From positions 1 to 35,928 of the forward strand of contig CAMVGV010000026.1 of NCBI GenBank assembly GCA_947167135.1: DNA of 35,928 nt. Reading direction: 5' to 3'. The notes below the pieces were generated by a model. That model was not told the DNA's origin. It made no database searches and was given only the letters and a program-made list of their open reading frames with translations. Positions 12,345 through 35,825 of the stretch are shown in pieces. Every line of letters starts with the position of its first letter. Position 1 is the first letter of the stretch. Source of the stretch: an uncultured Lachnospiraceae bacterium. GTDB taxonomy: Bacteria; Bacillota; Clostridia; Lachnospirales; Lachnospiraceae. The position numbers were made by a program, and so were the translations under genes.

Positions 12345-13958
12345 ATGGGAACTTATCTGAATCCGGGTAACAGCGCCTTTGCGGAAAAAATACGAACCGA
12401 ATATGTGGATAAAACGGGGCTTATCAGGCTTATTAATTCCACTATCAATACAAACGAGAAGCTGACCTGTATAAGCAGACCGCGGCGCTTCGGAAAGTCC
12501 TATGCGGCTCAGATGCTCTGCGCATATTACGATAGAAGCTGCGATTCGGAAGAATTATTCAGTGATTTTTCTATTTCAGGAGATGAGAGCTATAGGGAGC
12601 ATCTGAATAAATATGATGTGCTGTATCTTGATATTAGCGGAATACTGGGAGAGATTCCTTCCGACAGAATAGTGCCGTTTATTAAGAGAAATATTACTTT
12701 GGAGATAGAGTCCCGGTATCCCGGTGTGAAAATAGAAGAAAGCTTTGCAGCTACTCTGGTGAACCTCGTAGATCATATTGGGAATAAGCTTGTTATGATC
12801 ATAGATGAATGGGATTCCCCTATAAGAGAATCGGGGGATAATCCGGAAGCAGAGAAAAGATACTTTGAATTTCTCCGATCATTGTTCAAAAACAGCGGAA
12901 CAACATCAAAGATATTTGCTGCGGTCTATATGACCGGGATCTTACCGATAAAAAAGGACAGGACCGGTTCCGCGGTTTTTGATTTTATGGAGCGTTCAAT
13001 CCTTGATCCCAGAGACTTTGCAGGTTATTACGGGTTTACGGAGGACGAGGTAAAAGGATTATGCGGTAGAAACGGAAGAAGCTTTGAAAGCATGAAAAAA
13101 TGGTATGACGGCTATACCATAGGGGAGAGGGAGTCCATATACAATCCTTATTCGGTTATGGAAGCCGTGAGATCAGGAAAATACAGATACTATTGGAAAA
13201 AGACCTCTGCGGCCGAAACCCTTATGACCTATATTGATCTGGATTTCGAAGGGCTGCAGGGAGAGGTTGCAAGACTTGTCGCCGGGGAAGAGATCCCGGT
13301 AAGTACCGAATCCTTTGAAAACGATATAAACACATTTAGGGGAAAGGATGACGTGCTTACACTCCTTATCCATCTCGGATATCTCACATTCAGGGAGGTG
13401 CCGGCCTCATACAATGCAGATGATGAGGAGACCATAAAGCTTGCAAGGATTCCTAATGAAGAGGTACGTTTTGAATTTGAGAGCATACTTAGACAGTCAT
13501 CCCACAGAGCCCTGATCAGTCTAATAAATAAATCGGATATTCTGCTCAATGATACGATCGCAGGACTTGAGGAGAGGGTGGCGAAAGCTATTCAGGAAGT
13601 CCACGATTCAGAGTATGCTCATACATTTTATAATGATGAACAGAGCCTTAGATATGTGATAAAGCTTGCCTATATTTCCTGTGTGGATAAATACGCAAAG
13701 GTGGAGGAGCTGCCTTCGGGACATGGTATCGCTGATGTGGTATTCATTCCGAAAAGAAATTCTGCCCTTCCGGCAATGGTAGTGGAGCTAAAATGGAACC
13801 ACTCCTCAGAGGCCGCGATTATGCAGATAAAGGACAGAAACTACCTCTCCGTGCTGAAAAACTACGGCGGTGAGATCCTATCGGTTGGAATAAGCTATGA
13901 TGAAAAAACCAAGGTCCATAGCTGCAGGATAGAGAGAGTAAGATTTGGTAAACAATGA
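12345..13958 (+). CDS. AAA-ATPase-like protein with C-terminal PD-(D/E)XK nuclease-like domain
   Basis: A 537-residue protein of the AAA-ATPase_like/DUF1703 type. It opens with the usual YVDKTGLIRLI segment. The Walker A-like motif is RPRRFGKS (45-52) and the Walker B is LVMIIDEWDSPI near 146-157. The C-terminal domain contains DVVFIPKRN and VVELKWN near 463-484, matching the D...ExK core of PD-(D/E)XK nucleases. Such proteins are abundant and multicopy in Bacteroidales and Clostridia; their role is not established, though mobile or defence functions have been suggested. It sits inside the glycan locus and its stop overlaps the next start (ATGA at 13955), so translation is probably coupled to the GT4 gene. 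Confidence 0.88.
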   Translation: MGTYLNPGNSAFAEKIRTEYVDKTGLIRLINSTINTNEKLTCISRPRRFGKSYAAQMLCAYYDRSCDSEELFSDFSISGDESYREHLNKYDVLYLDISGILGEIPSDRIVPFIKRNITLEIESRYPGVKIEESFAATLVNLVDHIGNKLVMIIDEWDSPIRESGDNPEAEKRYFEFLRSLFKNSGTTSKIFAAVYMTGILPIKKDRTGSAVFDFMERSILDPRDFAGYYGFTEDEVKGLCGRNGRSFESMKKWYDGYTIGERESIYNPYSVMEAVRSGKYRYYWKKTSAAETLMTYIDLDFEGLQGEVARLVAGEEIPVSTESFENDINTFRGKDDVLTLLIHLGYLTFREVPASYNADDEETIKLARIPNEEVRFEFESILRQSSHRALISLINKSDILLNDTIAGLEERVAKAIQEVHDSEYAHTFYNDEQSLRYVIKLAYISCVDKYAKVEELPSGHGIADVVFIPKRNSALPAMVVELKWNHSSEAAIMQIKDRNYLSVLKNYGGEILSVGISYDEKTKVHSCRIERVRFGKQ

Positions 13959-18592: not shown

Positions 18593-18718
18593 ACACATCA
18601 CAAAATCACAAAGCGAATAATCACAATACGGCAAAATGAAATAGCGCAAAAAAGCAAAGCGCTCTCTTGCTGTGCGGTTTAAGGAGTGGTACAATGGTTT
18701 TACCGGAGCAAAAGAGAA

Positions 18719-20008
18719 GTGGATAGAGAATACATCAGCAGAATAGCGGACGGGGAACTGAATACAAAACTAAGTGTATTTGGAGCCGTGCATATTGTTG
18801 GTCCAAAATGGTGTGGAAAAACAACCACGGCTGAGCAACATTGCAAAAGTGCGTTAAAGCTTCAGAAGGATCCAAATAAGGAAGGTCTGATAGAAACTGC
18901 CAGAATCAATCCGGCAGTACTCCTTAACGGAGAAAAGCCAAGGCTTATTGATGAGTGGCAGGATGCACCAAATCTCTGGGATGCTGTAAGGGTTTATTGT
19001 GATGATAATCATGCGAGAGGGCAGTTTGTTCTTACGGGGTCGACATCACGGAAGCTTATAACCAGTCATACGGGAACCGGCAGGATCTCAAAATTAAAAA
19101 TGTATCCAATGAGTCTGTATGAGTCCAAAGAATCTAACGGAACGGTTTCTCTGTTTGAATTATTTAATAATAAGGATGCGCTAAAGGACGGTTGTGTTTC
19201 TGATCTCACTATTGATGGATTGATTGCTGCGGCCTGCAGAGGTGGATGGCCGGAGAGTGTTATTATAGGAAATATTGACTCAGGCATTTTAATAGCGAGA
19301 GACTATTACAATCAGATATATGAAGAAGATATGTATCATGTTGATGATGTGAAGCGTAACAAGGAAACAATGAAAGCGCTTCTCAGATCATACGGGCGTA
19401 ATCTTGCAACCATATCCAAAAATTCAAGTATTATGGCTGATGTGTCTGCCACCAACAGCATATCTGATGTCACATTTGCAGACTATTTGGATGTTCTTGA
19501 GAGATTATTCATTATTGAAGATATACATGGCTGGTGTCCCTCTATACGCTCAGCCACTGCAATAAGAAACGGCAGAAAACGGATGTTTGTAGATCCATCA
19601 ATAGCTGTGGCATCTCAGGGGGCATCACCGGAAATTTATAGTTTGGATCTCAAGACCTTTGGCTTTGTTTTTGAATGTCTGTGTATGAGGGACTTAAGGA
19701 TATACTCATCATCCTTGGATGGAAATCTGTCATATTATCGGGACCGTTATGGTCTCGAAGCAGATGCGGTACTTCACCTAGCAGATGGGAGATATGCACT
19801 TATTGAGATAAAACTCGGAGCGCATGAAATTGAGGAAGGCGCTAAGCATTTGAATGAACTGGAACGGCTGATAGGCAGATATAATGAAAAGGAAAAACAA
19901 TGCCCGCTAAGACAGCCGGATCTGAAATTGATCATCACCGGAACAAAGTATGGTTATAAACGTGAGGACGGGGTTTTTGTAGTACCTATTGGCTGCCTGA
20001 AAGATTAG
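18719..20008 (+). CDS. AAA_14/DUF4143-family ATPase
   Basis: A protein of about 429 residues that starts just before YISRIADGEL, the usual N-terminus of this family. Walker A is GPKWCGKTT (near 28-36), the Walker B-like segment is RLIDEWQDAPNLWDAVR, and the sensor-like segment is FVLTGSTS. The C-terminal DUF4143 half includes YYRDRYGLEADAVLHLADG and YALIEIKLG, which resembles a restriction-endonuclease-like fold. The function of the family is unknown. The start is uncertain. GTG 18719, with GGAG 10 bases upstream, gives the family-typical length. GTG 18686 is also in frame but overlaps its own AAGGAG. ATG 18694, with the best ribosome binding site, is in a different frame and stops after ten codons. 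Confidence 0.85.
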   Translation: MDREYISRIADGELNTKLSVFGAVHIVGPKWCGKTTTAEQHCKSALKLQKDPNKEGLIETARINPAVLLNGEKPRLIDEWQDAPNLWDAVRVYCDDNHARGQFVLTGSTSRKLITSHTGTGRISKLKMYPMSLYESKESNGTVSLFELFNNKDALKDGCVSDLTIDGLIAAACRGGWPESVIIGNIDSGILIARDYYNQIYEEDMYHVDDVKRNKETMKALLRSYGRNLATISKNSSIMADVSATNSISDVTFADYLDVLERLFIIEDIHGWCPSIRSATAIRNGRKRMFVDPSIAVASQGASPEIYSLDLKTFGFVFECLCMRDLRIYSSSLDGNLSYYRDRYGLEADAVLHLADGRYALIEIKLGAHEIEEGAKHLNELERLIGRYNEKEKQCPLRQPDLKLIITGTKYGYKREDGVFVVPIGCLKD

Positions 20009-26426: not shown

Positions 26427-27353
26427 ATGGTCACATTAAATATAGATTTTCCAAAGGATTTTTTTAAAAGTGAAACAAGAAGCGGTTTTTTGGTGACAGA
26501 AGAAAGAAAAAAAGTATGGGCCGTGCAACTGGATCTTCTATATGAATTGGATAGAATATGCAAAAAGAATGGCATAAACTATCTGATTGACAGCGGAACT
26601 TTATTGGGAGCTGTCAGACACAAAGGTTTTATTCCCTGGGATGATGATATCGATTTAATTATGCTTAGGGAAGATTACGAGCGTCTTATTAAGATTTCTG
26701 AACACGAGATAAAGAAACCGTATTTTTTTCAATATTATCGAAATGATAATTTTTATTTTCGTGGGCATTCACAATTCAGGAATTCTGATACGTGTGGGGC
26801 GTTACGACATGAACTCTTGAATGAAACATTTAATCAGGGCATTTTTATTGATATTTTTCCTGTAGATTCAGTTTCTGAGGATATGATAAAATTAAAAGAA
26901 CAGTTTGACGGGCTGACGGATTGTTATCAAATCCTTGAATGTATAAAATCCAAGGTGCCCAAATCAAACGGGATAATGTCTGCTGTAAAATATTGTTTTC
27001 TGAAATGGCGTTTTTTGAAGATTCATGATAAATATGAGAATTATGCAGTGATGAACGACGGTATGTCGGAATATATAGATAAAGTTGCGTTTCGTGGAAA
27101 AATTCATAAAAAGTTTTATCATATCAGAAAAAATATATTTGACGATACAATTCATTTACAGTTTGAGTTCCTGACGCTTCCGGCACCAAAAGATTATGAT
27201 GGTCTTTTAAGAGTTTACTTTGGAGACAATTATATGATTCCATCCAGAGCTCCAAGCTGCCATGCAGAGATATGTTTTAACGTTGAAAAATCATATGCAG
27301 ACGTGAAAAATGAGATAAATCATGGGTCTGTTGGTGATTATTTTATACTGTAG
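26427..27353 (+). CDS. LicD-family phosphotransferase
   Basis: A 308-residue LicD/FKTN-type protein. The signature is complete: LLYELDRICKKNGINYLID, DSGTLLGAVRHKGFIPWDDD (55-74) and DIDLIM, with Asp55 and the Asp72-73-74 and Asp76 cluster as metal and catalytic residues. LicD enzymes transfer phosphocholine, or related groups such as phosphoethanolamine or aminoethylphosphonate, from CDP- or CMP-activated donors to cell-surface sugars. The phosphonate genes at 32673-35825 make CMP-aminoethylphosphonate a plausible donor here; no choline kinase or choline transporter is in the window. AAAGGA lies about 7 bases upstream, and the gene follows the RgpF-like gene by two bases. Confidence 0.92.
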   Translation: MVTLNIDFPKDFFKSETRSGFLVTEERKKVWAVQLDLLYELDRICKKNGINYLIDSGTLLGAVRHKGFIPWDDDIDLIMLREDYERLIKISEHEIKKPYFFQYYRNDNFYFRGHSQFRNSDTCGALRHELLNETFNQGIFIDIFPVDSVSEDMIKLKEQFDGLTDCYQILECIKSKVPKSNGIMSAVKYCFLKWRFLKIHDKYENYAVMNDGMSEYIDKVAFRGKIHKKFYHIRKNIFDDTIHLQFEFLTLPAPKDYDGLLRVYFGDNYMIPSRAPSCHAEICFNVEKSYADVKNEINHGSVGDYFIL

Positions 27354-27419: not shown

Positions 27420-28499
27420 ATGAAGATAACTATTGTTGGTGGTGGAAATATAGGGACACAATTTGCGGTACATTGTGCAGAAAAAGGGAATGATGTCGTT
27501 ATTTTTACTTCAGAACCCCATCTGTTTAATAAACATTTATCTATTGTGGACGAAAACTACGAATGTATCCATGAAGGGGATATTTTGTATGCAACTGACA
27601 GGCCTGAAAAAGCGTTTGTAAATGCAGATATTATCATACTTACTGTTCCTGCAATGATCATTCCAAAGTATGAGAAATACATATATAATTACGCTGGAAA
27701 TGAAGCTGTAATTGGTATTATTCCCGGGAATGGAGGAGGAGAGTGTGTATTAAGAAGATGTATTAAACGGGGGAATACTGTTTTCGGACTTGAAAGAGTA
27801 CCAGCGATTGCACGATTGATAAAGAGAGGGTCTGTTGTTCGGTGTATTGGATATAGAAATGAGCTTCATGTTGCTTCTCTTCCAGGTTCTTCAGTAAACA
27901 GATGTGCAGATATTGTTGAGAGCCTTTTTGATATTCATTGTACTTGCATACCATGCTACCTTTCATTATCAATGACGCCATCAAATCCTATTCTCCATTC
28001 TGCCAGATTGAGGTGTATTTTTAAGGGATATATTCCTGGCGTGACGTACTCTGAGCTACCACTTTTTTATGAAGATTGGGATGATGAATCTTCCAGACTT
28101 CTTCTTTTATGCGATGAAGAGGTACAGGATATATGCAGATCTCTTCCGGAATGTAGTTTGGAATATGTTTCTTCTCTTAAAAATCATTATCAGAGTTTTA
28201 CTATTAAGGATATGACTGCAAAGATATCGTCAATTCCAGCATTTCAGGGATTGGAGACACCATCTGTAAAAACAGATAATGGATTAATACCAGATTTGCA
28301 TAACAGATATTTTGTTGCTGATTTTTCTTATGGATTGTCGGTTATCCAGCAGATTGGAGAGTATTGCGGCGTTAAAACGCCTAATATAGATGATACTATG
28401 AACTGGTACAGGGATATATCAATTGAAAAAGAAGAATTCCGATTCAGAGATTATAAGATACTTAGCTGTGATATGATGAAAGAGTTTTACTTATTATAG
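27420..28499 (+). CDS. Octopine/nopaline (opine) dehydrogenase-family oxidoreductase
   Basis: A 359-residue NAD(P)-dependent enzyme. The N-terminal Rossmann fold opens with KITIVGGGNIGTQFAVHCAE, then ADIIILTVPA. The C-terminal opine dehydrogenase domain carries NPILHSARL (about 190-198), with the conserved catalytic His near 194. The family reductively couples a 2-oxo acid, such as pyruvate, to the amino group of an amino acid or amine, forming N-(1-carboxyalkyl) products. In some capsules such N-carboxyethyl amino acids are sugar decorations, which could explain its place between licD-like and sulfatase-fusion genes. The true substrates are unknown. The ribosome binding site is weak. A 10-base repeat TTAATTATTG occurs at 27354 and 27406, just before the gene. 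Confidence 0.82.
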   Translation: MKITIVGGGNIGTQFAVHCAEKGNDVVIFTSEPHLFNKHLSIVDENYECIHEGDILYATDRPEKAFVNADIIILTVPAMIIPKYEKYIYNYAGNEAVIGIIPGNGGGECVLRRCIKRGNTVFGLERVPAIARLIKRGSVVRCIGYRNELHVASLPGSSVNRCADIVESLFDIHCTCIPCYLSLSMTPSNPILHSARLRCIFKGYIPGVTYSELPLFYEDWDDESSRLLLLCDEEVQDICRSLPECSLEYVSSLKNHYQSFTIKDMTAKISSIPAFQGLETPSVKTDNGLIPDLHNRYFVADFSYGLSVIQQIGEYCGVKTPNIDDTMNWYRDISIEKEEFRFRDYKILSCDMMKEFYLL

Positions 28500-28643: not shown

Positions 28644-31409
28644 GTGAATGCATTAACAATACTATATTCATTATTTATTATGCCCCTTCAGTTGTTTTTT
28701 GAAGTGGTTTTTTCTTTTGCACAGCGTTTTACAGATAATCCGGGACTCTCAATAATTGTCCTGAGTCTGACAATGAATTTTCTTGTATTACCTCTTTATA
28801 AAAGGGCTGATGCAATACAGGATAGGCAGCGTGAAATTTCGAAGAAAATGCAACGCGGTATTTCACATATAAAGCGGGTATATTCCGGTGATGAAAAAAT
28901 GATGATGCTTCAGACCTATTACAGGCAGAATCATTATAAACCGACTGATGTTTTTAAGGAATCGCTTTCTTTATTAATACAGATACCTTTTTTTATAGCG
29001 GCTTACAGGTTTTTATCAAACCTTGCACTTCTTGATGGAGCTGCATTTGGACCCATAAGGGATCTCGGAATGCCGGATGCTCTTGTCGTTGTCGGAAATA
29101 CTAGCTTTAATTTTCTTCCGGTATTAATGACATTGATTAATATTATATCTTGTCTGATATATACGAAGGGCTTTCCTCTTAAGTCGAAGTTACAGCTGTA
29201 TATAATGGCTTTCTTATTTTTAATATTGCTTTACAATTCACCGTCAGGGCTTGTTTTATACTGGACTTTGAACAATCTTTTTTCATTGATAAAGAATATA
29301 TTTTTTAAGCTAAAAGACCCGACGAAGTTGCTTTCCATGTTATGTTCACTATGCGGTGTTGTTTTGGCTCTGTATAGTATTGCTTTTTTTGATAACACCC
29401 TAAAGAGAAGGATAATTGTTGTTTTATTCGGATTGTTTTTGCAAATTCCGTTTGCTGTAAGGCTGCTATTTAAGTCAAGCAAAGTGAACAATAGAATTCA
29501 CTTGGTATTTCCAAAGGCAAACCGAGAATTGTTTTTATTGTCATCTATTATGCTTTCCACGTTTATCGGGGGACTTATCCCATCGGCGTTATTGAAATCA
29601 TCACCTCAGGAATTTATTAATATTTCGTTATACTATAATCCGCTTTGGTATTTGTTTTATGTATTTTTAGTTTCAGTAGGGTATTTTGTATTATGGACGG
29701 GTGTCTTTTATTCTGTTGCAGATAATACCGGAAAAGTGATAATTGAAAAAATAATGTTACTGTTCTGTGGGACAGCTGTAATTGATTATATGTTTTTTGG
29801 AACAGATCTAGGCATTATTTCAGCTACTTTATGTTTTGAGGAGGATCTGATATATTCCTGGAAAGATAAAATCGTTAATTTACTCGTGATTTGTATATTA
29901 CTATTTCTTGTTTTTATTTCTACCAGGTTCGAAAAATATCTGGATAGTATCCTTATCACGATTATCGTGGTTGTACTGATAATGACAGGAATAAATGCCT
30001 TTATCTCATTCAGGGCAATTAAGCCGGTGGAGGCCAGGATCAAATCGGGGGAAAAAATAAGCTTCAATCTCAGTAAAAACGGAAAAAACATTATCGTGTT
30101 GATGCTTGATAGAGCTATCGGACCCTATGTTCCATATATCATGAATGAAAAACCGGAGTTAAAAGAAAAGTACGATGGATTTACCTGGTACTCAAATAGT
30201 CTTTCCTTTTCAAATAATACGAACACAGGTGCTCCTGCTCTGTTTGGAGGATATGAGTATTCTCCTGTAGAATTAAACAAAAGAGATAAAGAAAGGCTGG
30301 TAGATAAGCATAACGAATCGTTGAAGGTTATGCCGGTATTATTTGATGAGAACGGATATGAAGTTACTGTATGTGATGTTCCTTACGCTAATTATCAGTG
30401 GATACCGGATATGACGATTTATGATGATTATCCGGGTATCAATACATATAATACTGAGGGCATGTTCAGCTTGAAAGTTCAGCAAAGCAAACTGTTGAAT
30501 ACCAGAAGAAATCTTTTCTTTTACAGCTTAATGAAGGCTTCTCCAGTGATTATACAGAAATATATTTATGGTGGAAGCAATTATAATCATCTTACAGAGA
30601 GGGGATACACATCTACAGGACAGGTTACCGAGGGGACATCTGTTGCTCAGGGTATTTCATCAGAGTTTCTGTCATCATTCGATGTACTGAAAAACATTGA
30701 AAAACTCACGGATATAAGTAGCAGTGAGAAGAACACGTTCCTTATGATGAATAATAACGCAACACATGAGCCGATTCTACTTCAGGAACCCGAATATCTT
30801 CCGAAAGAATCTGTGAATAACACAGATTTTGATGCTGCTAATGTATCAAGATTTTCTGTTGACGGTAAGGAAATAAAGATGGAAAACGTTGATCATTTTA
30901 TCCATTATGAAACCGACATGGCATGTATGATACAGCTTGGAAAATGGTTTGACTATATGAGAGAAAATGGGGTTTATGATAATACCAGGATAATACTTGT
31001 ATCTGATCATGGAAGAAATCTGTCTCAGTTTGATGAATTAGAATTGAAAGAAGATGGAAAGTATTATGATTTGGAAAAAGTCAGCCATTTACTTATGGTA
31101 AAAGATTTTAATGAGAAGGGCTTCAAGGTTTCGGATGAATTTATGACAATAGCGGATGTACCAACTATTGCGGTATCCGGTATTATTGATAACCCTGTTA
31201 ATCATTTTACCGGCAAACCTATCAATAACGATGATAAGTTTGTTGGCGAGCAATATATCCTTTTGGACTCTCCTTGGGAGGTTGGGATTAATAATGGTAC
31301 CCAGTTTCTTCCCGGAGACTGGCTTGCAGTCCATGATAACATCTGGGATAAGAACAACTGGAGGGTTGTTGCAAGGGATGCAGTGTTTGCCGGGAAAGGG
31401 GAAGAATGA
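28644..31409 (+). CDS. YidC/Oxa1-like membrane domain fused to a sulfatase/alkaline-phosphatase-type domain
   Basis: A 921-residue protein. Residues 1-225 match YidC/Oxa1: a first helix LSIIVLSLTMNFLVLPLYK (35-53), a basic amphipathic loop, LLIQIPFFIAAYRFL (110-124), and SPSGLVLYWTLNNLFSLIKN (199-218). The equivalent of the conserved groove Arg is Asn45. Residues 230-450 add about seven more hydrophobic helices. Residues 480-850 form an extracytoplasmic sulfatase-fold domain: metal ligand Asp489 in VLMLDRA, a Thr nucleophile candidate (Thr526 or Thr528), His708, then LVSDHGRNL with Asp788 and His789, and ADVPTI. LtaS- and EptA-like relatives transfer phosphoglycerol or phosphoethanolamine. 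GTG 28644 with AGGAG upstream is the start. The stop overlaps the next gene (ATGA), which encodes a glycerophosphotransferase-like protein. Confidence 0.85.
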   Translation: MNALTILYSLFIMPLQLFFEVVFSFAQRFTDNPGLSIIVLSLTMNFLVLPLYKRADAIQDRQREISKKMQRGISHIKRVYSGDEKMMMLQTYYRQNHYKPTDVFKESLSLLIQIPFFIAAYRFLSNLALLDGAAFGPIRDLGMPDALVVVGNTSFNFLPVLMTLINIISCLIYTKGFPLKSKLQLYIMAFLFLILLYNSPSGLVLYWTLNNLFSLIKNIFFKLKDPTKLLSMLCSLCGVVLALYSIAFFDNTLKRRIIVVLFGLFLQIPFAVRLLFKSSKVNNRIHLVFPKANRELFLLSSIMLSTFIGGLIPSALLKSSPQEFINISLYYNPLWYLFYVFLVSVGYFVLWTGVFYSVADNTGKVIIEKIMLLFCGTAVIDYMFFGTDLGIISATLCFEEDLIYSWKDKIVNLLVICILLFLVFISTRFEKYLDSILITIIVVVLIMTGINAFISFRAIKPVEARIKSGEKISFNLSKNGKNIIVLMLDRAIGPYVPYIMNEKPELKEKYDGFTWYSNSLSFSNNTNTGAPALFGGYEYSPVELNKRDKERLVDKHNESLKVMPVLFDENGYEVTVCDVPYANYQWIPDMTIYDDYPGINTYNTEGMFSLKVQQSKLLNTRRNLFFYSLMKASPVIIQKYIYGGSNYNHLTERGYTSTGQVTEGTSVAQGISSEFLSSFDVLKNIEKLTDISSSEKNTFLMMNNNATHEPILLQEPEYLPKESVNNTDFDAANVSRFSVDGKEIKMENVDHFIHYETDMACMIQLGKWFDYMRENGVYDNTRIILVSDHGRNLSQFDELELKEDGKYYDLEKVSHLLMVKDFNEKGFKVSDEFMTIADVPTIAVSGIIDNPVNHFTGKPINNDDKFVGEQYILLDSPWEVGINNGTQFLPGDWLAVHDNIWDKNNWRVVARDAVFAGKGEE

Positions 31410-32671
31410 TGGGAGTATTACTGTATATAGATCCCGGAACCGGGAGTATGCTGTTTACAATCCTTATTGGACTTATCGGTGCCGGGGTTTATGCCTTCAG
31501 AATGCTTATATTAAAGTTCAGGTTCTTTCTGAGCGGAGGAAAGAAGGTGGCAGATAACGGAGAACGTATACCTTTTGTTATCTTTTCAGACAACAAAAGA
31601 TACTGGAATGTTTTTGAACCTGTCTGTCGGGAGTTTGACCGAAGAGGAGTGGATGTTGTCTATATGACCGCATCACCGGACGACCCTGCTCTGAATTCCG
31701 GTTATGAGCACGTTAAGGGTGAGTTTATCGGAGAAGGGAACAGAGCCTTTGCGAGGCTTAATTTCCTGAAGGCTGATTTGGTCTTTTCAACCACACCGGG
31801 GCTTGATGTGTATCAGTGGAAAAGGTCAAGGGATGTAAAGTACTACGTGCATATATTTCATGCAGCAAGTGATGTGACACTCTACCGTTCATTTGGAATA
31901 GATTATTATGATGCCCTTCTTTTGTCGGGACAGTTCCAGATCGATCAGATACGGTCACTTGAAAAGCTTAGGGAACTTCCGGAGAAGGAGCTTGTTGTTG
32001 CCGGTATTCCTTATATGGATGAAATGAAGGCGAGGCTTGACAATGCAGAACCGGTAGAAAAAAGTGGAACAACAGTTTTGCTTGCGCCCACCTGGGGACC
32101 TGAAGGGATATTGTCAAAATTTGGGGAGAAGCTGATCGATGAGCTGATAAAAACCGGGTATCAACTTATCATTCGTCCACATCCGCAGTCTTTCAGTTCA
32201 GAGAAAGAACTCATTGAGAGGCTTATTACCAAATACCCGGATTCCAATTCCCTTCAATGGAACCGGGATACCGACAATTTCGACGTATTAAGGAAATCTG
32301 ATATAATGATATCCGATTTTTCGGGGGTTGTATTTGATTTCACACTTGTATATGATAAACCTGTTATTTATACCGCCGCAAAGATAGACACTTCGGTATA
32401 TGATGCATGGTGGCTTGGGACCCCTACATGGACCGAAACGGTTTTACCCAGACTCGGAAAAGAACTTAATGGGGATAATCTGTTAAATGTCGGGGAGATA
32501 ATCAACGAATGTCTCGCAGATGATATCTATTCAGAGGGAAGAGAGTCTGTGAGAAGGGAATGCTGGGCATTTCCCGGCGAAAGTGTATCGAAGGTTACGG
32601 ACTATTTAATTGATACGATGAATAAGCTGAAAGAAAACAGTGTTACTGAGGATAAGGAGATGACAAGCTGA
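31406..32671 (+). CDS. CDP-glycerol glycerophosphotransferase-family protein (TagB/TagF-like)
   Basis: A 421-residue protein. The N-terminus has a YIDPGTGSMLFTILIG segment and a membrane anchor (about 13-35). The GT-B-like catalytic part follows: YYVHIFHAASDVTLYR supplies a candidate catalytic His, LLAPTWGP and YQLIIRPHPQSF lie in the donor domain, and DIMISDFSGVVFDFTL with YDKPVIYT forms the CDP-glycerol phosphate-binding region. Relatives add glycerol phosphate in teichoic-acid synthesis. No separate tagD was seen. It overlaps the YidC-sulfatase gene by four bases and is two bases before the PEP mutase gene, so it links the glycan and phosphonate parts. The substrate could be another CDP- or CMP-linked polyol or phosphonate. 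Confidence 0.85.
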   Translation: MMGVLLYIDPGTGSMLFTILIGLIGAGVYAFRMLILKFRFFLSGGKKVADNGERIPFVIFSDNKRYWNVFEPVCREFDRRGVDVVYMTASPDDPALNSGYEHVKGEFIGEGNRAFARLNFLKADLVFSTTPGLDVYQWKRSRDVKYYVHIFHAASDVTLYRSFGIDYYDALLLSGQFQIDQIRSLEKLRELPEKELVVAGIPYMDEMKARLDNAEPVEKSGTTVLLAPTWGPEGILSKFGEKLIDELIKTGYQLIIRPHPQSFSSEKELIERLITKYPDSNSLQWNRDTDNFDVLRKSDIMISDFSGVVFDFTLVYDKPVIYTAAKIDTSVYDAWWLGTPTWTETVLPRLGKELNGDNLLNVGEIINECLADDIYSEGRESVRRECWAFPGESVSKVTDYLIDTMNKLKENSVTEDKEMTS

Positions 32672-32672
32672 T

Positions 32673-33971
32673 ATGTCGAAGAAAGTATATACGTGTTTTT
32701 GCACGGATGTTATCCATGAGGGACATCTGAACATAATAAGGGAGGCAGAAAAGCTTGGCGATGTTACGGTCGGTGTGCTTACCGATTCCGAGATGATACG
32801 GTACAACCGCTTTCCGCTTAAAACTACAGAGGAAAGAGTGGAAATGTGTCGTGAGATACCGGGAGTAAAGTCGGTATATATTCAGAATACCATCATGTAC
32901 GATCAGGTGGTAAAGGAGCTGAATCCGGACTATATTGTTCACGGTGACAACTGGTCCGATGAATCGATGAAGGCAATAAAACGTAATATACTTGAGCTCC
33001 TAAATAAATATGGCGGGAAACTTGTAGAGATACCGTATACCTATTCCCCGGAGGTTGAAAAGACGGACAGACAGACCAGACAGAAGCTTGCCATGCCGGA
33101 ATTGAGACGTGCAAGGCTGAAGAAGCTCATGAGACTTGTACCTATTGTAAAGGTATGTGAGGTACACAGCGGACTTACGGGTCTCATTGTAGAAAAAACC
33201 GTTGTAGCAGACGGAGAAGCAATAGATCAGTTTGAAGCTATGTGGATAAGCTCACTCTGCGACAGTACTGATAAAGGAAAGCCTGATATTGAACTGGTGG
33301 ATCTGACAAGCAGGTTCCGTACGATAAATGATGTTATGGAGGTTACTACCAAGCCCATAATTTTCGATGGGGATACGGGAGGACTGACTGAGCATTTTGT
33401 GTATACTGTACGTTCCCTGGAAAGGATGGGAGTATCTGCCATAATAATTGAGGATAAGACAGGATTGAAAAAGAACAGTCTTTTCGGTACAGAGGTTCAG
33501 CAGACGCAGGACAGTATCGAAAACTTCTGTGAAAAAATATCTGCCGGCAAGAAGGCGCAGCTGTCGGATGATTTTATGATAATCGCCAGAATAGAATCCC
33601 TTATACTGGAGCAGGGAATGGAAGATGCTTTGAAAAGAGCACATGCGTATGTGGAAGCCGGAGCCGACGGCATTATGATCCACAGTCGGCGTAAGGAACC
33701 CGACGAAATACTGTTATTCTGCGACAGCTTCAGGGAGACAGACAAAGAAACACCGATAGTTGTGGTGCCGAGTTCTTTTAATACGGTAACAGAGAAGGAG
33801 TTATCCGATCACGGGGTTAATATTGTGATATACGCTAATCAGCTTTTACGCGCTGCGTATCCCGCCATGGAAAATGCGGCAAAGAGTATACTCCTTCATC
33901 ATAGGGCTCATGAGATAGACAGGAGTCTTATGTCTATTAAAGAGATTATTACACTGATAGATGAGTTTTGA
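32673..33971 (+). CDS. Phosphoenolpyruvate mutase with N-terminal cytidylyltransferase-like domain
   Basis: A 432-residue protein of two parts. Residues 1-128 are a cytidylyltransferase-like fold with HEGH (15-18), LTDSEMIRYNR, PDYIVHGDNW and the ending VEIPYTYSPEVE. Residues 150-432 are phosphoenolpyruvate mutase, which isomerises PEP to phosphonopyruvate, the first step of phosphonate synthesis. The catalytic signature EDKX5NS is intact as EDKTGLKKNS (260-269), preceded by KPIIFDGDTGG and followed by the E and K residues of KISAGKKAQ and IIARIESLI. A fused cytidylyltransferase is known in this enzyme group. Here the usual GISST-like loop after PYT is replaced by YSPEV, so the N-terminal activity is doubtful. 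The AAGGAG ribosome binding site lies 13 bases upstream. Next come transaminase and nucleotidyltransferase genes. Confidence 0.93.
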   Translation: MSKKVYTCFCTDVIHEGHLNIIREAEKLGDVTVGVLTDSEMIRYNRFPLKTTEERVEMCREIPGVKSVYIQNTIMYDQVVKELNPDYIVHGDNWSDESMKAIKRNILELLNKYGGKLVEIPYTYSPEVEKTDRQTRQKLAMPELRRARLKKLMRLVPIVKVCEVHSGLTGLIVEKTVVADGEAIDQFEAMWISSLCDSTDKGKPDIELVDLTSRFRTINDVMEVTTKPIIFDGDTGGLTEHFVYTVRSLERMGVSAIIIEDKTGLKKNSLFGTEVQQTQDSIENFCEKISAGKKAQLSDDFMIIARIESLILEQGMEDALKRAHAYVEAGADGIMIHSRRKEPDEILLFCDSFRETDKETPIVVVPSSFNTVTEKELSDHGVNIVIYANQLLRAAYPAMENAAKSILLHHRAHEIDRSLMSIKEIITLIDEF

Positions 33972-33991: not shown

Positions 33992-35116
33992 ATGACAGAA
34001 AGGAAAATTTTATTGAATCCCGGACCGTCTACCACGACAGAAAGCGTAAAAATGGCTCAGATAGTTCCGGATATTTGCCCGAGAGAAAAAGAATTCCGGG
34101 ATATTATGGCGCCGATAAGGAAAGAATTAACAGAAATCGTTCACGGCGATCCGGATGAATATACAGCAGTCCTTTTCTGTGGATCAGGAACCATATGTAT
34201 AGATGTGGCGCTGAATTCACTTCTGGCTGATAAAAAGAAAGCCTTTGTCATCAATAACGGATCATACAGCCAGCGGGCTGTTGATGTCCTTTCTTATTAT
34301 GGTCTTCCGTATATTGAGTTAAAACAGCCGTTTGATAAACAGCCCTCTTTATCTGCGATTGAGAAGGTGCTAAAAGAAAACGGGGATATAGGATATGTTT
34401 ATATAACCCATCATGAAACCGGAAGCGGTCTTCTGAATCCGGTAAGAGAGGTGGGAGAGCTAGCACATAGATACGGTACCTTTCTCATAACCGATACAAC
34501 GTCTTCGTTTGCCATGATTCCCATAAATGTTTATGAAGATAACATAGATTTTTGTATGGCCTCAGCCCAGAAGGGTATCATGGGAATGACAGGACTTTCT
34601 TATATCATCGGTAGAAAGAGCATTATAGAGGAAAGTGCGGGTTATCCCAGGCGCTCATATTACTGTAATCTGTACATGCAGTATGATTATTTTGAGCGAA
34701 CGGGAGAGATGCACTTTACCCCTCCTGTACAGACAATATATGCTGCAAAGCAGGCTTTGATCGAGTATCGTTCGGAAGGTGAAGAAGCAAAGTGGAAAAG
34801 ACACCAGAGGATAATGAATGCCATTAGGGAAGGAATTGACAGGCTGGGATTTAAGGAGGCTCTTGACAGATCAGTTCAGTCAGGACTGGTTGCAGCCATA
34901 AAATATCCCGATGATCCGAATTGGGATTTTGACAGAGTGCATGACCTGTGCTATGAAAAGGGATTTACCATATATCCCGGAAAGCTTGAAAGACAGAATA
35001 CTTTCAGATTGTGTGCACTCGGAGCAATAGACGAGGATGATATCAGAGACTTCTGGAAAGTATTTGAGGAGGCTCTGGAAAAGCTGGGAGTAGAGGTGCC
35101 TGTCTTTTATGAATAA
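33992..35116 (+). CDS. 2-Aminoethylphosphonate transaminase-type class V aminotransferase
   Basis: A 374-residue PLP enzyme of the PhnW/AepZ type. It begins ILLNPGPSTTTESVKMAQ, typical of class V, has the PLP-contacting FCGSGT (62-67), Asp168 in LITDTTSSF, and the Schiff-base Lys194 in MASAQKGIMGMTG. In phosphonate synthesis it would convert phosphonoacetaldehyde to 2-aminoethylphosphonate (AEP). Its position directly after PEP mutase supports the biosynthetic direction. The start has AAAGAGGTG upstream. It overlaps the nucleotidyltransferase gene by 8 bases; in some bacteria the transaminase and AEP cytidylyltransferase are a single fused protein (PntC), so this looks like the split form. 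Confidence 0.88.
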   Translation: MTERKILLNPGPSTTTESVKMAQIVPDICPREKEFRDIMAPIRKELTEIVHGDPDEYTAVLFCGSGTICIDVALNSLLADKKKAFVINNGSYSQRAVDVLSYYGLPYIELKQPFDKQPSLSAIEKVLKENGDIGYVYITHHETGSGLLNPVREVGELAHRYGTFLITDTTSSFAMIPINVYEDNIDFCMASAQKGIMGMTGLSYIIGRKSIIEESAGYPRRSYYCNLYMQYDYFERTGEMHFTPPVQTIYAAKQALIEYRSEGEEAKWKRHQRIMNAIREGIDRLGFKEALDRSVQSGLVAAIKYPDDPNWDFDRVHDLCYEKGFTIYPGKLERQNTFRLCALGAIDEDDIRDFWKVFEEALEKLGVEVPVFYE

Positions 35117-35825
35117 TAATGAAATCGCTGTGATAATGGCTGCAGGGATGGGTACCAGGATGAGACCTCTTACGGATGAGATCCCTAAACCCCTTGTCAG
35201 TATAAACGGACAACCTATGATAGAATCTGTTATTTGCTCCCTGAGACAGAGGGGTGTCGGGGAGATCATCATCGTGACCGGATACAGGAATTCTGATTTT
35301 GAGTACCTGAAGAGCAAATATGATGATATTGAGTTGATCCATAATCCGGAATATCAGATAAAGAATAATCTTTCTTCTGTTTTCTGTGCCTGTGACAGAA
35401 TGAAGGACCATGATTGTTTTATTTGTGAAGCAGATCTGCTGATATCCGATTATTCCATTTTCGACCGGATTTATGACCGGTCCTGTTATTTTGGAAGATT
35501 TGTTGGGGGACATTCTGACGACTGGGTTTTTTATCTCGATAAAAAGGAAAGGATAATAAGGATATGCAAGGGCGGTGATGATGTATTCAATATGGTCGGA
35601 CTGTCCTATTTTAAAAGGGATGATACCGATATCCTGGTACAGCTGATAAAGGATTCATACGAAAAGGAAGGAAACGAAGATCTTTTCTGGGATGAAGTGG
35701 TGGACAGAAATCTAGATAAGCTGGATTTGGGTATACAGGAAGTTAATGAAAAACAGATCTGTGAATTTGATACCATAGAGGAGCTTGCTGAAGCTGATCC
35801 CTCTTACCTTCGGTATCTGCAATGA
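35109..35825 (+). CDS. Nucleotidyltransferase, probable AEP/phosphocholine cytidylyltransferase (LicC/PntC type)
   Basis: A 238-residue GT-A-like nucleotidyltransferase. The N-terminal signature is AVIMAAGMGTRMRPLTDEIP with KPLVSINGQPMIE, followed by EIIIVTGYRNSDFEYLK, LSSVFCACD and the metal-binding CEADLLISD near 103-111. The small size and form match LicC and the N-terminal domain of PntC, which use CTP to activate phosphocholine or AEP. The overlap with the transaminase gene makes CMP-AEP the most likely product, to be used by a LicD-type transferase. Nucleotide and substrate choice are inferred from context. AGGTG about 10 bases upstream supports ATG 35109. Confidence 0.82.
   Translation: MNNNEIAVIMAAGMGTRMRPLTDEIPKPLVSINGQPMIESVICSLRQRGVGEIIIVTGYRNSDFEYLKSKYDDIELIHNPEYQIKNNLSSVFCACDRMKDHDCFICEADLLISDYSIFDRIYDRSCYFGRFVGGHSDDWVFYLDKKERIIRICKGGDDVFNMVGLSYFKRDDTDILVQLIKDSYEKEGNEDLFWDEVVDRNLDKLDLGIQEVNEKQICEFDTIEELAEADPSYLRYLQ

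Follow-up and report, generated by a model that had tools for sequence, protein, structure and literature searches.

The window, the 35,928-nucleotide stretch of an uncultured Lachnospiraceae contig analyzed here, carries the following genes and features:

26427..27353, forward strand: LicD-family phosphotransferase (PF04991, E 7.6e-40).
27420..28499, forward strand: opine/octopine-type dehydrogenase (PF02317), lying between the LicD gene and the fusion.
28644..31409, forward strand: fusion of a YidC domain, a transmembrane bundle and a sulfatase-fold domain, 921 aa in one open reading frame (ORF).
28644..29318, forward strand: YidC/Oxa1 core of the fusion, residues 1-225 (PF02096; fold match to 3wo7 and 6al2).
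29520..30047, forward strand: five-helix membrane bundle of the fusion, residues 293-468, in the position of the EptA/LtaS membrane domain.
30078..31406, forward strand: sulfatase/alkaline-phosphatase-fold domain of the fusion, residues 479-921 (PF00884 and fold).
31406..32671, forward strand: partner protein with an N-terminal YIDPGTG helix and a TagF-like GT-B glycerophosphotransferase domain (PF04464), its start overlapping the stop codon of the fusion.
31424-31444, forward strand: YIDPGTG motif of the partner, invariant in 51 aligned sequences.
32673..33971, forward strand: cytidylyltransferase-phosphoenolpyruvate (PEP) mutase fusion, the maker of the C-P bond (TIGR02320, E 2e-123, over the cut-off; PF01467 and PF13714).
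33992..35116, forward strand: 2-aminoethylphosphonate (AEP) aminotransferase, PhnW/AepZ (TIGR03301, E 4.4e-129, over the cut-off).
35109..35825, forward strand: PntC/LicC-like NTP-transferase, likely a CMP-AEP synthase (PF12804/PF00483).

A sequence-only reading of this DNA had proposed that a YidC/Oxa1-like domain and a sulfatase-fold enzyme are joined in one chain. This was confirmed in the relatives recovered by a genome scan, which found at least 592 encoding stretches, the best 80 of which gave 78 loci, mainly from Clostridia-type records. Most of these loci come from metagenome assemblies. In 73 of the 78, a single ORF spans the catalytic part and no fewer than 200 of the 225 YidC residues, and a frame error or a chimeric assembly joining two genes was therefore rejected. 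Among the exceptions, three run off the start of the locus (L065, L080 and L093), one, close to the end of its contig, is missing residues 1-39 (L060), and one begins at residue 86 and appears interrupted (L044). The YidC fold expected in residues 1-225 was recovered when the structure model was searched, by the matches to 3wo7 and 6al2, in a fold search that probes the parts of a multidomain model unevenly. No single model spans the whole protein among the NCBIfam models matching the proteins of the window. The family is widespread, yet uncommon: among 398 genomes sampled evenly across the phylum, 3, one of them the window's own, encode the bundle and catalytic part at E ≤ 1e-30. A phage origin was rejected, no relative being present among viral contigs, and so was a plasmid origin: 27 plasmid records match, none of which covers 80% of the query, and the ten plasmid matches listed are confined to residues 4-224, and six of the ten carry a yidC annotation. 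We found no description of a YidC-sulfatase-fold fusion in the openly available literature, as judged by titles and the openings of abstracts; automatic databases may well already list this architecture.

The bundle helices span residues 294-319, 334-358, 361-385, 406-428 and 430-466 in the structure model. PbgA aligns to residues 292-913 at an rmsd of 14.6, and therefore the relative placement differs between the two proteins. Structure matches of the fusion also include LtaS/LtaP, choline sulfatase and phosphonate monoester hydrolase. Residues Asp489, Thr526, His708, Asp788 and His789, which we take to be the nucleophile and metal sites by comparison with EptA/LtaS active sites and from their motifs, are invariant in all 109 distinct fusions (117 rows minus eight near-copies, the window's own being one of the eight), a set restricted to lengths above 820 aa and, in nine loci, also to copies with a GGY-type motif. 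Eight of the nine copies outside this filter agree at all five positions, and the ninth, at 16012 in L081, is cut before the last three. The nucleophile of S1 sulfatases is a cysteine or serine, matured to formylglycine, and that of the EptA/LtaS transferases is a threonine. Since the five residues are invariant and the nucleophile position holds Thr, not Cys or Ser, in 109 of 109 fusions, the domain most likely works as an EptA/LtaS-type phosphotransferase. The active site of LtaS/EptA kind that had been noticed in the sequence thus proved intact across the family, in agreement with the fold.

In the structure model, the YidC part shows the core membrane fold with its cytoplasmic hairpin, and it narrowly misses the cut-off of the TIGR03592 insertase subfamily (83.7 versus 84.3 bits). 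Of 87 full-length relatives, 68 entered the structure-set alignment, and roughly a quarter of these 68 were used for the YidC tree. In this tree of 62 sequences, the sulfatase-fused YidC parts form a clade of their own (SH-aLRT 100) on a long branch. The insertase module is under the strongest constraint: over all 5886 pairs of the 109 distinct fusions its residues are on average 61% identical, against 34% in the bundle and 49% in the catalytic domain. Among 25 fusions compared, the position of the groove Arg/Lys (Asn45 in the window) holds Asn in 22, Ser in 2 and Gln in 1; among 20 canonical YidC relatives it holds Arg in 10, Lys in 4 and Tyr in 2, with 4 unread. Ser41, Thr163 and Asn166 are invariant in the 25, and it follows from their alignment positions that these residues and Asn45 putatively face the groove. 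We do not take the missing groove Arg to prove that insertase function was lost: canonical YidC from this genus can carry Tyr there, so that loss of the charge proves no functional change. Residues of the cytoplasmic hairpin are also fixed in the 25 fusions, Glu84 and Tyr98 among them being unlike canonical YidC.

The fused domain is not the only YidC of its genome, an idea we rejected on finding a separate canonical-type yidC on another contig, next to an ORF that resembles jag by eye. Such a gene was seen in only 6 of the 25 genomes of the same genus (G000 to G024), and in a seventh the contig begins in its last codons. It is missing even from some genus genomes that are at least 93% complete, with or without the fusion; this scarcity is maybe an assembly gap.

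Several loci carry more than one copy of the fusion. In 29 same-locus pairs (not independent, ten coming from L063), the YidC parts are 85% identical, the bundles 51% and the catalytic parts 63%; the 19 pairs left without L063 give 80%, 51% and 61%, respectively. At fourfold sites, same-locus pairs are 53%, 37% and 42% identical in the three parts, and 149 random pairs are 30%, 29% and 31% identical. This same-locus excess in YidC implies that the YidC parts are partly homogenized between copies while the catalytic parts diverge. The combination of constant YidC and variable catalytic parts suggests a shared donor side and a diversified acceptor side. The locus L063 (1-20811) carries seven tandem copies, the first of them cut by the locus edge, plus one split in two ORFs, around one partner gene; in the five copies compared, YidC parts are 92 to 99% identical and catalytic parts 63 to 75%.

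The adjoining glycerophosphotransferase, which the sequence-only reading had named as a flank of the fusion, is its close genetic partner: in 63 of the 78 loci no more than 300 bp separate the two genes, which share a strand, and in 65 the partner occurs somewhere in the locus. The 13 loci without it in view include several short ones, and four (L061, L077, L082 and L087) have at least 5 kb on both sides. Clustering of neighbors blind to family placed the partner first (68 of 90 loci, the 90 including 12 short loci of the genus) and a LicA/LicC group second (24 loci). In 41 related genomes, the partner was present in 12 of the 13 with a fusion (rows of at least 35% identity to the fusion), and none of the 28 others had any match to it (hypergeometric P = 1.6e-9, which ignores the relatedness of the genomes); the exception, G019, has the fusion alone. 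Fusions outnumber partners, reaching four to one in G012 and G020. The partner matches PF04464 at 49.4 bits (cut-off, 22.1), and its best structure match is TagF (3l7k, E 1e-12; model pLDDT 87.5). It falls far short of the NCBIfam TarF/TarL equivalog cut-offs (15.1 and 13.9 bits versus 550 and 1000). Its alignment took in 50 of the 56 listed relatives. In L132 the partner adjoins sulfatase-fold proteins devoid of YidC, and therefore YidC is not invariably attached.

Downstream of the partner, the window encodes the C-P bond maker, the AEP aminotransferase and the PntC/LicC-like enzyme. No close phosphonopyruvate decarboxylase was found in the assembly of the window, where the contig ends at the window end. 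The AEP gene set accompanies the fusion in 2 of the 78 loci, L090 and L021; in the latter the partner lies 5.6 kb away (L172 comes from the same organism, with an identical Ppd). AEP genes occur with both the fusion and the partner in the window, in L090 and L021 and, beyond the 78 loci, in L137, L138 and L169. A PntC-like relative, labeled by BLAST, lies beside other AEP genes in L137, L138, L155, L156, L164, L165, L167 and L169. Choline-type genes are more frequent: choline kinase is found in 19 of the 78 loci, LicC/PntC-like enzymes in 28, LicB-like transporters in 10 and BCCT transporters in 2. A rough background from different genomes is 5 of 41 relatives for choline kinase over the cut-off and 11 of 41 for PEP mutase. 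An HMM built from five LicD members detected a LicD-like ORF in 2 of the 78 loci overall and in none of the 19 choline-kinase loci, in the stretch examined. Overall, 31 of the 78 loci have some donor gene, and 47 have none in view, 24 of these with at least 15 kb of sequence. On each of four trees (the partner and the three parts of the fusion; 25 labeled loci), the AEP or choline label changes three times, and therefore the pairing with a donor has probably switched repeatedly; the idea that one domain tracks donor specificity is unsupported, the count being the same on all four trees.

These data bear on the earlier suggestion that the fusion works in a setting of surface-glycan modification. 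The suggestion is supported. Of the opine dehydrogenase, which had been cited as a flank, no relative was found by tblastn in the 78 loci; this gene looks local to the window and is probably outside the system. The LicD of the window could take up CMP-AEP by itself, a point against the machine proposed below. Farther upstream, two ORFs resembling AAA-type ATPases by eye (12345-13958 and 18686-20008) lie among the glycosyltransferases of a glycan cluster. An NTP-transferase-class I/II aminotransferase fusion of about 600 aa is encoded near YidC-TagF-like or YidC-sulfatase genes in L160, L161, L166 and L062, and may serve a third activated donor, an amino-phosphonate or amino-alcohol.

A search for PF02096 in relatives also turned up YidC-TagF-like fusions, each encoded by one ORF, and Pfam confirmed both parts in the three such fusions scanned. 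This second architecture occurs in 15 of 299 genomes of the family (rows at 44% identity or more). Its YidC parts form a separate clade on a long branch (SH-aLRT 99) in the same tree and retain Lys (16) or Arg (1) at the groove position in the 17 sequences compared. By BLAST labels, phosphonate genes lie nearby in 7 of 18 loci. Six of these have AEP genes, including L131, where no PEP mutase is in view; in L130 the sole phosphonate gene is a PEP-mutase-like triple fusion below the TIGR02320 cut-off. A small or fused YIDP-motif helix is found in 12 of the 18 loci (in L130 on the opposite strand), and a sulfatase-fold membrane protein lacking YidC in 9, none being seen in the other 9 stretches. 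L165 and L167 are complete, with AepZ, Ppm, PntC, Ppd, the YIDP helix, YidC-TagF-like and sulfatase-fold proteins, and in L154 the helix is fused to the sulfatase-fold protein. As judged from their sequences, four modules (YidC, YIDP helix, TagF-like and sulfatase-fold) are partitioned among proteins in two ways, and such re-partition is classic evidence that they work together. In L130 (9467-14431), the YidC-TagF-like gene sits beside an iron alcohol dehydrogenase and the triple fusion, which joins NTP-transferase, cytidylyltransferase and PEP-mutase-like parts; this cluster is possibly a hydroxyethylphosphonate variant.

We propose, with a probability of a little under one half (about 0.47), that the fusion and its partner are the halves of one surface-decoration machine, in which a lipid-linked phosphonate or phosphocholine is made, flipped and transferred outside. 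The groups that this machine would put on the cell surface are probably aminoethylphosphonate or phosphocholine. In the cytoplasm, neighboring genes would make the activated group, here probably CMP-AEP and in relatives CDP-choline. The TagF-like domain of the partner would pass the phosphonyl or phosphocholinyl group from the nucleotide to a lipid of the inner leaflet, and the hydrophilic groove of YidC, acting as a flippase or scramblase rather than a protein insertase, would bring the polar lipid head to the outer leaflet. There, the LtaS/EptA-type domain would load the group onto Thr526 and deliver it to a surface glycan or lipid; the catalytic type of this last step is supported by the predicted fold and the invariant residues. 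Several copies of the fusion may serve different acceptors from one donor made by a single partner, which would explain the copy pattern observed. The scheme is drawn from the topology expected of these families, with the TagF-like domain inside, the catalytic domain outside and YidC between them, and from the report of in vitro lipid scrambling by E. coli YidC and by yeast Oxa1 and Get1, via the insertion channel (PMC10491306). A 2025 review likewise describes lipid scrambling as a presumed activity of YidC (PMC7618853). The earlier suggestion that the YidC groove hands a lipid-linked substrate to the catalytic domain would fit this scheme; the donor genes, the second architecture and the constant and variable parts of the tandem copies go beyond that reading. 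Our confidence is lowered by the 47 of 78 loci with no donor gene in view. Also counting against the model are the presence of the AEP set in just 2 of 78 loci, the fusions without a partner (G019 and the 13 loci noted above), the YidC-less proteins of L132, the 9 of 18 second-architecture stretches in which no sulfatase-fold gene was seen, the donor label that follows no single domain, and the phosphonopyruvate decarboxylase missing from the assembly. The broader proposal, that in two architectures, one with an outer-face transferase and one with a cytoplasmic TagF-like enzyme, an insertase fold now serves as a flippase dedicated to lipid-linked phosphonate or phosphocholine, is a tentative one.

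The strongest rival is that the YidC part acts as a dedicated insertase or intramolecular chaperone and that catalysis by the sulfatase-fold domain draws on an ordinary phospholipid as donor. Candidate clients would be the fused bundle, the YIDP helix of the partner or a surface polypeptide acceptor. The modeled fold is entirely YidC-like, and the fixed hairpin residues, with the distinctive Glu84 and Tyr98, could bind the partner. Nevertheless, the genome has a separate yidC, sulfatase-fold proteins exist without YidC in related loci, and no EptA- or LtaS-type enzyme is known to need an attached insertase. On balance we consider this role unlikely.

Another explanation, which we regard as rather improbable, has the partner modify a lipid-linked glycan in the cytoplasm, by adding either glycerol phosphate or the activated group; the fusion would be a phosphatidylglycerol-using enzyme like lipoteichoic acid synthase, and the phosphonate or choline genes would feed LicD or other enzymes. 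This would accommodate TagF as the best structure match of the partner, LtaS/LtaP among the matches of the fusion, LicD upstream in the window and the 47 loci with no choline or phosphonate gene in view. It would also fit the TagD-like ORFs recognized by motif in L043 and L168, because of which some donors may be CDP-glycerol. Against it stand the near absence of LicD-like ORFs (0 of 19 choline-kinase loci, 2 of 78 overall) and the link to phosphonate genes that recurs with the second architecture (7 of 18 loci).

That the YidC part is only a structural anchor, an accidentally captured helix bundle retained for stability, is very unlikely: gene fusions may be neutral, but this module varies least of the three parts and recurs, in another family, joined to a TagF-like enzyme. 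Equally improbable is an exported sulfatase or phosphodiesterase removing groups, as annotated, for which the Pfam name and the structural closeness of choline sulfatase and phosphonate monoester hydrolase speak, and against which stand the invariant Thr of EptA/LtaS kind and the membrane bundle preceding the domain.

If the machine proposed here exists, it is a new class of surface-decoration system and a natural case of a YidC groove moving lipid head groups, and the fusion offers a natural test case for the relevance in cells of lipid scrambling by insertases. The two proteins are candidates for transferring the phosphonate to the surface once its CMP form has been made, and for a phosphocholine decoration free of LicD. 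The carriers are anaerobes, and the records of many mention rumen or gut samples.

Each component resembles a known system and departs from it. With the YidC/Oxa1 insertases (SpoIIIJ/YidC, PF02096) the fusion shares the core fold and cytoplasmic hairpin, but it adds a catalytic domain, has Asn for the groove Arg/Lys in 22 of 25 sequences and forms a separate clade. With EptA/MCR/PbgA and LtaS/LtaP it shares a membrane bundle, an alkaline-phosphatase fold and a Thr at the nucleophile position, whereas the YidC module in front, the cytoplasmic TagF-like partner and, where seen, the accompanying genes for CMP-AEP or CDP-choline set it apart. The partner has the GT-B fold of the TagF/TarL CDP-glycerol glycerophosphotransferases, with PF04464 over the cut-off, but it is short, carries a single N-terminal YIDPGTG helix and is tied to AEP or choline genes. 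The LicABCD phosphocholine and PntC phosphonate decorations use the same activated groups; unlike them, the loci described here have YidC and sulfatase-fold modules and, in their choline-kinase members, no LicD-like ORF. LicD-like genes have been reported near PntC-type clusters (Rice et al. 2019; PMC6697681), in a paper whose main text contains neither the word YidC nor the word sulfatase. The proposed machine would parallel the GtrA/GtrB/Gtr systems in its logic. These comprise a synthase, a flippase and an outer transferase, and one donor serves several transferases. By hypothesis the fusion and its partner follow the same scheme, but they would move a phosphonyl or phosphocholinyl group instead of a lipid-linked sugar.
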